Part shown: piece by piece, positions 26,015 through 29,264 of the stretch
Layout: every line of letters starts with the position of its first letter
Position numbering within the stretch: the stretch's first letter is position 1
Source: Hyphomicrobiaceae bacterium
GTDB taxonomy: Bacteria > Pseudomonadota > Alphaproteobacteria > Rhizobiales > Aestuariivirgaceae
Assembly: GCA_900298995.1 (NCBI GenBank)
Contig: OMIC01000008.1
Location: forward strand, 124,001 to 188,000
Reading direction: 5' to 3'
Length of the DNA stretch: 64,000 bases
Notes under the pieces: generated by a model
Databases searched by the model: none
What the model was told of the DNA's origin: nothing
Seen by the model: only the letters and a program-made list of their open reading frames with translations
Program-made: the position numbers and the translations under genes

Positions 26015-27112
26015 TTACTGCACCGTGCCACGGGCATCGACCCGCACGGCGCCAAGAACCGCGTCGCCGCGCGTGAACACCACCTTGTCGAAGAGATTGG
26101 TGACCGGGCAGACGTGATTGGGTGTGATGCGCACCAGGTCGCCAACCCTTGGCTTGTCGTTGAGCCTGGAGATGTCGAGAAAGCCGTGTTCCTCCGACAT
26201 GGCGTAGACCTTCGCGCCGGAGAGGGCGCGCACCTCGCCATAGCCCTCGAGCCCCAGAAGATCACTGGTCAGCGCCTTTGAACCGGCATCGATCATCGCG
26301 CGGTCTCCGGTCGGAACGCTCACGACCGTCGCGAGCACCGCTAGCGCGCAGTCCTGCGCGGCGGCGGAACCTGCGGCGACCTGCATCCGGTCATTGTAGA
26401 TATAGGTTCCGGCCCGGTATTCGCTGACATGCGCGAGGCCCTCATCCGACCACATGTCCGGGGTACCGCCGGTCGATATGGCAGGCGAGGCAAGACCTGT
26501 CCGTTCAAGACCTGCTCGCGCAGCGTCGAGAAACGCGGCCATGTGGCCGCGCGCGCCATTCTTCGGAAGGGTCATCAGGCCCCCGAACGTCAGCCCCGGT
26601 GTCCGGTCAATCGCCTGGGCCAGCGCGATGGCGGCCTCCGGGCTCTGCACGCCGTTGCGGGCCGCCCCCGTGTCGCATTCGACCAGAACCGCGATGTCGC
26701 GCCCGGATTGGGCCGCGGCATGGGAGAGGCCTTCGAGCACGGCCTCATTGTCGGCCACGACCTTGATGGCCGTGGTGCGGGCCAGGGCCGCAAGCCGGTC
26801 CAGTTTGTGAGCACCGACCACGTTGAAGGTGAGCAGCATGTCGGAGATTCCTGCTGCCGCCATGACTTCGGCCTCGCCGAGTTTCTGCACCGTGATGCCG
26901 CCGGCCCCCAGCGCGAGCTGGGCCCTGGCAAGGCCCGCGAGCTTGTGGGTCTTGATGTGCGGGCGATTGGCAAAGCCCGCCTTGTCGCAGCGCGCTTGCC
27001 AGCGCCCGAGATTGCGCGAGACCACATCGATGTCGATCACCGGTACGGGGGTTTCGAGATCTTCGAGCCGCTGGCCCACGGATTCGAGGTCGAGAAAGGT
27101 CTCCAGATTCAT
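26015..27112 (-). CDS. D-threonine aldolase/D-serine dehydratase-family PLP enzyme
   Basis: Fold-type III (alanine-racemase-like) PLP enzyme, 365 residues. The PLP lysine is in RPHIKTHK (Lys54). The C-terminal metal-binding histidine and cysteine (EEHGFLD and NHVCP) mark the metal-dependent D-threonine aldolase / DSD1 group. Other landmarks are VECDTGAARNGV and STGGTPDMW. It could cleave D-3-hydroxy amino acids to glycine plus an aldehyde or dehydrate D-serine; the two cannot be told apart by eye. Divergent from the disrupted TerC-family gene by 133 bp. Confidence 0.86.
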   Translation of the reverse strand: MNLETFLDLESVGQRLEDLETPVPVIDIDVVSRNLGRWQARCDKAGFANRPHIKTHKLAGLARAQLALGAGGITVQKLGEAEVMAAAGISDMLLTFNVVGAHKLDRLAALARTTAIKVVADNEAVLEGLSHAAAQSGRDIAVLVECDTGAARNGVQSPEAAIALAQAIDRTPGLTFGGLMTLPKNGARGHMAAFLDAARAGLERTGLASPAISTGGTPDMWSDEGLAHVSEYRAGTYIYNDRMQVAAGSAAAQDCALAVLATVVSVPTGDRAMIDAGSKALTSDLLGLEGYGEVRALSGAKVYAMSEEHGFLDISRLNDKPRVGDLVRITPNHVCPVTNLFDKVVFTRGDAVLGAVRVDARGTVQ

Positions 27113-27709
27113 CTGAGCGGCTCCGTGTTTCTGGCCAGTCTAGCATCATCCCGCCCCCCAGGTGAATGACCCGGCTGCCGGAAGGACCCTCTTGCACTGG
27201 GGCCGGGGTTGGTGCTGAAAGCCGCCAGGTGGGGGACCAAGCGTGATGGATTTCGTGCAATCTCTGATGACGGGCGATGCGCTGTGGGCGCTGGGGCAGG
27301 TCATCATGATCGATCTCGTTCTGGCGGGTGACAATGCGGTCGTGATCGGACTGGCGGCCTCCGGGCTGCCGAAGGCTCAGCGCAACAAGGCAATCCTTGT
27401 CGGCATTCTGGCCGCCACGCTCTTGCGCATCGTGTTCGCGGCGATCGCGACCCAGCTGCTCCAGCTGCTCGGGCTCATCCTGATCGGCGGAATTCTGCTG
27501 CTCTGGGTATGCTGGAAGATGTGGCGCGAACTGCGCGACAGCCGCCACCAGGAGGAGGGCGCCGAGGCCGTCACCGGCGAGGACCTGAATGCCGATGGCA
27601 CCATTGGCGCGCCGCCCGGCCGCAAGAGCTTTGCCCAGGCTGCCTGGCAGATCGTCATCGCGGACGTCTCGATGTCGCTGGACAATGTGCTGGCGGTGGC
27701 AGGGGCTGC

Positions 27710-27717
27710 CCGCGAGC
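27710..27717 (+). repeat. left inverted repeat of the 49-bp inversion
   Basis: CCGCGAGC, the reverse complement of GCTCGCGG at the right end. Eight perfect bases; a further matching base lies beyond one mismatch on the outside. This is short for a site-specific recombinase target. Confidence 0.8.
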
Positions 27718-27766
27718 CCCATCAGCGCCACTGACAGCCCCAGCCCGATCACCAGCACGGCGGGGT
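27718..27766. other. inverted 49-bp segment inside the TerC/YjbE-family gene
   Basis: The segment lies exactly between the 8-bp inverted repeats at 27710-27717 and 27767-27774. Its reverse complement joins in frame on both sides (…GAG C|AC CCC… and …ATG GG|G CTC…). In the present orientation it introduces a TGA stop 15 bases in. The bases just inside the repeats (CCC on the left, GGGGT on the right) can extend a hairpin, which could favour template switching or strand exchange. Confidence 0.85.
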
Positions 27767-27774
27767 GCTCGCGG
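27767..27774 (-). repeat. right inverted repeat of the 49-bp inversion
   Basis: GCTCGCGG, the reverse complement of the left arm. Both arms are part of the TerC-family coding sequence: the left falls in the codons for A-R-E(H) and the right in L-A. Confidence 0.8.
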
Positions 27775-27938
27775 CCTCGCTGATTGCAAAACTGCTGCAG
27801 AAACATCGCTGGATCGCCTATGTCGGGCTGGCCATCATTCTCTATGTCGCGCTGGAGATGATCTATCGCGGTTTTCTTGAAGTCTTTCCCAATGTAACGT
27901 GACCGGCGGAACCGGTTTTTCATTCAGAGCGCAGGGCC

Positions 27939-29264
27939 ATGACAATCAGCTTTCACGATCTCTCGAAGATGACGCGCGTCGAGCGCGACCGCCTGCTGCG
28001 CCGCACCGAGGCTGATCTCTCGGCCTTCGAGGACAAGGTGAGGCCGATCATCGAGGCGGTGCGCGTCGAGGGCGACGAGGCCCTGGCGCGGTTTGCCCGT
28101 GACCTTGACAAGGCCCCCGTGCAGGCGGCCGCCATTGCCGCCACGGCGGCGGATTTCGAACGTGCCGAAAAGACGCTTGATCCCAGGGTTCGCGAGGCGT
28201 TGGCCTTCATGGCGGTGTCGATCCGCAAGTTCCACGAAGACCAGAAGCCCGAGGAAATGTGGTTTCACGAGATCCAGCCCGGCGTGTTCGCCGGCGACCG
28301 GACGACGGCCATTCCCTCGGTTGCCTGCTATATTCCGCGCGGCAAGGGCGCCTTCCCGTCTTCCGTGCTGATGCAATCAATCCCTGCCAAGGTGGCTGGC
28401 GTGCGTGATATCGCCATCATCACGCCGCCCGGGCCTGATGGAAACATCGACGATGCCACGCTGGTGGCCGCGGGCATGGCGGGTGTGTCGAAAGTTTTCA
28501 AGGCAGGCGGCGCACAGGGTATCGCGGCGGTGGCGCATGGCACCCAGACGGTGCCGAAATGCAGCAAGGTGGTGGGGCCGGGAAGCCCGTGGGTGGGAGC
28601 GGCGAAGCGGCTTCTCTCGCATCTCATCGATGTCGGAACCCCCGCCGGGCCCAGCGAGCTCATCGTGCTGGCCGACGAGACGGCCGATGGCCGGCTTGCC
28701 GGCCTCGATCTCATCATCGAGTCTGAACACGGGCCCGACTCTTCCGCCTTTCTCGTGACCTGGAGCCGCAAGGTGGCAGAGGATGCGATGCAGGCCATTC
28801 CTGAGTTCTGGGCGCAGATGGGCGCGCAGCGTTCCGGCTTCTCGAAAACGGTTCTGGGCGGCGCCATGGGCGGCATCGTGCTGGCGCGCGACGAGGCCGA
28901 GGCCATTGCCTTCTGCAACGACTATGCGCCGGAGCATCTCGGCGTTCATTCCGACGAGCCGTTCCAGTATCTGGGCCGTCTCGAACATGCGGGCGAAATC
29001 CTGCTCGGCCGCCACACGCCGCCGACGCTCGGCAATTTCACCATCGGCGTCAACCATGTGCTGCCGACAAGCGGCTGGGCGAAGACCGGTTCCCCGCTCA
29101 CCGTGCATAACTTCATGAAGCGCACCTCGGTGGCCTATGTCACGGCGAAGGGCTACCCGGAACTCGCCCGCCACGCCGAGGTAATCGCCACCTATGAGGG
29201 CTTCGACGGCCATGCCAATGCGGTGTCCGAAACCCGGAACCGGCTGTTGAGGACCAATCGATGA
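27939..29264 (+). CDS. histidinol dehydrogenase-like enzyme (non-canonical zinc site)
   Basis: HisD-family NAD-dependent dehydrogenase, 441 residues. It has the catalytic Glu-His pair in YAPEHLGV and the CYIPRGKGAFPSSVLM loop. In E. coli HisD zinc is bound by Gln259, His262, Asp360 and His419. Here the matching positions read Glu (IIESEH), His, Asn (GNFTIGVNHVLP) and His (DGHANAV), so Gln became Glu and Asp became Asn. No other his genes are near; the next gene is a TPP enzyme overlapping by 4 bp. I infer a paralog acting on another amino- or hydroxy-compound, for instance like the sulfopropanediol dehydrogenase HpsN, not histidine synthesis. Confidence 0.83.
   Translation: MTISFHDLSKMTRVERDRLLRRTEADLSAFEDKVRPIIEAVRVEGDEALARFARDLDKAPVQAAAIAATAADFERAEKTLDPRVREALAFMAVSIRKFHEDQKPEEMWFHEIQPGVFAGDRTTAIPSVACYIPRGKGAFPSSVLMQSIPAKVAGVRDIAIITPPGPDGNIDDATLVAAGMAGVSKVFKAGGAQGIAAVAHGTQTVPKCSKVVGPGSPWVGAAKRLLSHLIDVGTPAGPSELIVLADETADGRLAGLDLIIESEHGPDSSAFLVTWSRKVAEDAMQAIPEFWAQMGAQRSGFSKTVLGGAMGGIVLARDEAEAIAFCNDYAPEHLGVHSDEPFQYLGRLEHAGEILLGRHTPPTLGNFTIGVNHVLPTSGWAKTGSPLTVHNFMKRTSVAYVTAKGYPELARHAEVIATYEGFDGHANAVSETRNRLLRTNR

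Follow-up and report, generated by a model that had tools for sequence, protein, structure and literature searches.

The window analyzed here, a stretch of 64,000 nucleotides, comes from a 58-contig draft assembly with a total of 2,987,378 bases and a completeness of 99.36%, and carries on its + strand an interrupted TerC gene of the YjbE type (27243..27902; PF03741 / TIGR03717). The gene is taken to start with the GTG at 27243, the ATG at 27246 being a possible alternative, and its original stop codon is found at 27900-27902. As given, the reading frame covers only 27243..27734 (+) and encodes 163 residues, ending in a premature TGA (27732..27734, +), so that the C-terminal part of the protein is missing. 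Both DN-containing stretches (GDNAVVIG and SLDNVLAV, read by eye) remain in this frame. A profile search matched the region 27243-27902 to PF03741 (TerC), and the truncated frame reaches 166.9 bits with TIGR03717 (cut-off 134.8), which places it in the YjbE subfamily and confirms the family that a preliminary description of this DNA had named (TerC/YjbE). The TIGR03717 match in the window is, however, broken in two, and model positions 125-140, which correspond to the helix discussed below, are absent between the pieces. Among named organisms, Aestuariivirga sp. MAGs carry the most similar genes, with 84-85% identity in the best segment, in a comparison from which the window’s own genome was possibly omitted.

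On one side of the TerC gene lies a divergently oriented D-serine-dehydratase-type gene and on the other side a gene of the histidinol-dehydrogenase type, the latter separated from it by only 36 bp (27903-27938) in the window. In the relative G045 (L139:16311-18246), TerC and the histidinol-dehydrogenase-type gene are separated by two further genes, one with a SIS domain and one with a polysaccharide-deacetylase fold. A spacing of approx. 1.9-2.4 kb at five further loci (L034, L035, L036, L041, L147) suggests the same two genes there, and the spacing is approx. 1.05 kb at L145. For the polysaccharide-deacetylase-fold gene, a match with 90% identity is located on another contig (C55) of the window’s genome. 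For the SIS gene the match in this genome is only 26% identical and, therefore, this gene was either lost or not assembled.

The premature stop is the product of an inversion. A segment of 49 bp (27718..27766) is present in reversed orientation, i.e., its reverse complement (- strand) encodes the expected helix HPAVLVIGLGLSVALMG. The segment is enclosed by an inverted repeat with the left arm CCGCGAGC (27710..27717, +) and the right arm GCTCGCGG (27767..27774, +). The arms are exact 8-bp reverse complements at a distance of 49 bp (11 bp if one mismatch is allowed) and abut both breakpoints exactly. Flipping back either the segment alone (27718-27766) or the segment including its arms (27710-27774) has the same outcome, a protein of 219 residues ending at the TGA 27900-27902 with HPAVLVIGLGLSVALMG restored. 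The 3′ end of the gene (27767..27902, +), beginning with LAASLIAKLLQKH, is in frame and open up to this natural stop. Hence, the inversion of 49 bp between exact 8-bp arms inside the coding sequence, its unchanged length and the repair of the frame by reverse-complementing 27718-27766 were all correctly recognized in the preliminary description. Only the extent of the truncation had been underestimated there, as the frame ends at codon 164 instead of codon 220 and the stop, consequently, comes 56 codons early rather than 15.

Among 63,935 positions of the window, 8-bp inverted repeats spaced by exactly 49 bp were counted three times, the present one among them; the fit of the arms to the breakpoints is, therefore, not accidental. 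Inverted repeats of this kind are common as such, with 133 maximal pairs of at least 8 bp and spacers of 20-100 bp in the window. The site does not form an unusually stable hairpin (z = −0.14 for the single-strand fold), and no Rfam element was detected in the region 26500-28500 at E-values up to 1.

The preliminary description had pointed to the TerC genes of relatives as a means of deciding which orientation is ancestral. For this comparison, 116 distinct homologous loci were collected, with identical aligned DNA merged, and 110 of them were scored after leaving aside six partial ones; paralogs of one genome may both count in this number. At all 110 scored loci the homologs carry the uninverted form: the re-flipped protein aligns without gaps across residues 153-184, and no premature stop is present in the aligned part (the single stop counted, at L010, is a natural end). 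The DNA gives the same picture. Among 140 loci scanned, 120 have a forward match of at least 150 bp to the gene, and in 50 of the 140 (41 distinct aligned sequences) the segment matches the opposite strand, nested within the forward match. Opposite-strand matches of the segment were also obtained in 10 of the 36 other genomes of the genus. Together with the split TIGR03717 match, the matches on both the DNA and the protein level indicate that, judged by its homologs, the window’s orientation is the derived one. Among the compared genomes, with one genome per species, the inversion was found only in this one.

The same homologs were used to examine the arms. A perfect 8-bp repeat is present at none of the 110 scored loci, where 1-6 of the eight positions pair, most often four. 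When codons for the same residues were drawn according to the local codon usage, all eight positions paired in 0.44% of the draws. Compared to the window, the closest relatives usually differ by one base in the left arm and by one to three bases in the right arm. The absence of the perfect repeat from the homologs and its rarity among the codon draws suggest that it arose in this lineage, either through synonymous drift or through homogenization of the arms during the event itself. The latter would agree with passages in two reports in which template switching is described to homogenize arms (PMC8604942; PMC8755829).

The preliminary description had left three options open, namely a reversible intragenic inverton, a microinversion by template switching, and an artifact. 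In the first case, the 49-bp segment would flip to and fro, expression of TerC would phase-vary and the window would show the off state. Intragenic invertons are a described phenomenon; Chanin et al. reportedly found in 2024 that such elements consist of a segment within a gene, flanked by inverted repeats, and that its flip alters the reading frame. The present locus resembles them in having a repeat-flanked segment inside a gene, with exact arms at the breakpoints and a frame which is fully restored by the flip, and an off gene without clear decay (see below) would be expected as well. It differs from them in its 8-bp arms, in the lack of a conserved repeat and in that no candidate invertase was found among the three families searched. 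A lasting switch is expected, though not strictly required, to be maintained in relatives, yet none of the scored homologs has the perfect repeat, and a conserved inverton was set aside for this reason. Further, the exact arms (8 bp, or 11 bp with a mismatch) fall below the 10-40 nt given for invertons in a section of PMC11892184. Looping by a recombinase is argued to be physically impossible for segments <33 bp, considering a persistence length of about 145 bp, in part of PMC8755829, and 49 bp is not far above this limit.

Recombinases were searched in the entire genome using three protein families. No matches were obtained for PF00239 (serine recombinase) and PF01548 (IS110/Piv-type). Four proteins match PF00589 (tyrosine recombinase), all encoded on contigs other than the window’s; from their domain layout, two look Xer-like and two look integrase-like with arm-binding domains. 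A dedicated invertase was set aside, since none was found via these three families, but an enzyme of another kind, or one of the four PF00589 proteins, is still conceivable. A literature search on intragenic invertons or inversions returned no matching papers. To our knowledge, the invertible segment would be far smaller than those of known invertons. Taking the missing repeat, the missing invertase and the very short span together, the proposal that the gene is “switched off” by an inverton gained no positive support, and we consider this option very improbable. A contingency switch could also work without any recombinase if template switching at the perfect 8-bp repeat flipped the segment both ways at an elevated rate, which would create a subpopulation without the YjbE transporter; we regard such a scenario as even harder to credit. 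A reversible segment of this size would make a remarkably small switch, but nothing here points that way.

Instead, the option we favor, with a probability of roughly 0.7, is a recent, real and non-programmed microinversion in the YjbE-type TerC gene, caused by a template switch at a repeat that was there by chance. In the course of replication or repair, the short inverted repeat CCGCGAGC/GCTCGCGG would have allowed the nascent strand to pair, the 49-bp spacer would have been copied off the opposite strand, and a switch back would have followed. This would leave the spacer reversed in place without any change in length, and the resulting protein, ending after 163 of 219 residues, would most likely correspond to a null allele. 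Similar events have been described in eukaryotes. Microinversions between human and chimpanzee, as presented in parts of PMC8755829, likewise cause no length change. They sit between inverted repeats, perfect or nearly so, which reach with their inner edges exactly to the segment ends. Their arms comprise 3-75 nt, about half of them 4-8 nt, according to the same parts of that study. However, the primate segments measure 17-33 nt there, whereas the present one has 49 bp (65 bp including the arms), is bacterial and truncates a gene. In yeast, template-switch events described in a portion of PMC8604942 also invert the spacer between the arms inside coding sequences, with homogenization of the arms being possible. 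In contrast to our case, with a 49-bp spacer, 8-bp arms and truncation, the yeast spacers given there are only 2-5 bp long, the arms exceed 9 bp and amino acids are replaced. Both comparisons match the present case imperfectly.

The same microinversion could also stem from breakage within the segment and subsequent microhomology-mediated break-induced replication, as opposed to a template switch at a fork. This mechanism is proposed for primate microinversions, notably those with short or imperfect arms, in passages of PMC8755829. It would be compatible with a spacer of this length and with a fold of ordinary stability, and fits equally well. On the other hand, nothing here sets it apart, and perfect 8-bp arms suit template switching too; we see it as a variant of the template-switch explanation and give it very little weight.

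The window and its flanks were screened for forward matches that enclose a short match on the opposite strand. The present event was the only one in the 56,022 window bases that could be aligned, and there was none in the aligned parts of the flanks, which amount to up to 63,079 of 153,894 bases, overlaps included. To assess the sensitivity of the scan, flips were planted in the window; recovered were 53/187 at 30 bp, 127/181 (70%) at 49 bp, 149/185 at 65 bp, 166/183 at 100 bp and 169/178 at 150 bp. Consequently, the negative result for further flips is of moderate strength at 49 bp and weak at 30 bp. A bad library containing many flips was set aside, as the scan gave a single event. The window’s contig showed an uneven match to the compared stretches of related genomes (G000:C8:1-100000): its first 60 kb are almost without matches of at least 150 bp, 60-100 kb are partly matched and the contig is well covered from 100 kb onward. 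This may reflect lineage-specific content or synteny outside the compared stretches.

The remaining option is an artifact of library preparation, amplification or assembly. In this case the gene would be intact in the cells, and the flip would stem from a chimeric molecule or a bad consensus. The genome is a draft in 58 contigs, one strand-displacement amplification is reported in part of PMC9484634 to yield chimeric DNA as a by-product, and an intact gene would be expected considering its little decay and its retention across the genus, which are described below. However, the 65-bp event would fit into ordinary short reads, and the consensus should track the majority of the reads. Further, no other flip was detected in the aligned parts of the window and its flanks (recovery 127/181 at 49 bp), despite many equally good inverted repeats in the window. 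Overall, we consider an artifact unlikely, and the microinversion is probably present in the cells.

Next to its mechanism, the age of the microinversion was assessed from traces of decay in the re-flipped gene. Twelve relatives were hand-picked among the close matches, and the first ten were used for mean distances; private changes were scored only where all other sequences agree. No private amino acid change was found at sites at which the 12 relatives all agree, and no frame break is present before, in or after the segment. Before the segment, the mean distances at codon positions 1/2/3 are 0.161/0.078/0.432 between window and relatives and 0.157/0.081/0.373 among the relatives. The corresponding values are 0.102/0.102/0.434 vs. 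0.118/0.060/0.388 within the segment (17 codons) and 0.135/0.087/0.498 vs. 0.115/0.066/0.355 after it. Hence, there is an excess at the third position on both sides of the break, and a small excess at the second position in and after the segment, based on few codons. We read the slightly raised distances as a somewhat faster lineage, with slight decay as the alternative. An old pseudogene was set aside, as the re-flipped gene has no clear decay.

The YjbE subfamily is found above the cut-off in 33 of 37 genomes of the genus, including the window’s genome. Among the four genomes below it, G012 (79% complete) has distant matches only, the matches in G042 and G050 are apparently cut short, and the match in G009 is split. 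The latter genome is 66% complete, and its YjbE match (G009:C255:3084-3664) consists of two abutting pieces covering model positions 1-72 and 72-175, which suggests a frameshift in that assembly. Since clear decay is missing and the gene is retained this widely, the break in the YjbE-type gene would be either recent or not fixed. For the same reasons, selection on the gene probably lasted until shortly before the flip.

The product of the current frame comprises the first 157 residues and a few encoded by the flipped segment, while helix 158-174 and everything beyond are missing. TerC proteins have seven membrane segments, as stated in a passage of PMC10550928. With model positions 125-140 lost and a stop at codon 164, the set of membrane segments in the truncated product is predicted to be incomplete, which makes a null allele likely. 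A null allele is somewhat unexpected, because YjbE is near-universal in the genus and the genome is 99% complete. A second YjbE copy above the cut-off was not found in the genome. Two other TerC-family proteins are encoded, one of the Alx type above its cut-off and one below all three subfamily cut-offs, and these two may partly cover for the lost YjbE.

The locus represents a clean bacterial case of an intragenic microinversion flanked by inverted repeats, whose direction is fixed by the relatives. Annotation could mistake such an event for ordinary frame-breaking divergence. For the organism itself, the inversion would mean the loss of a metal-transport protein which its genus nearly always keeps.
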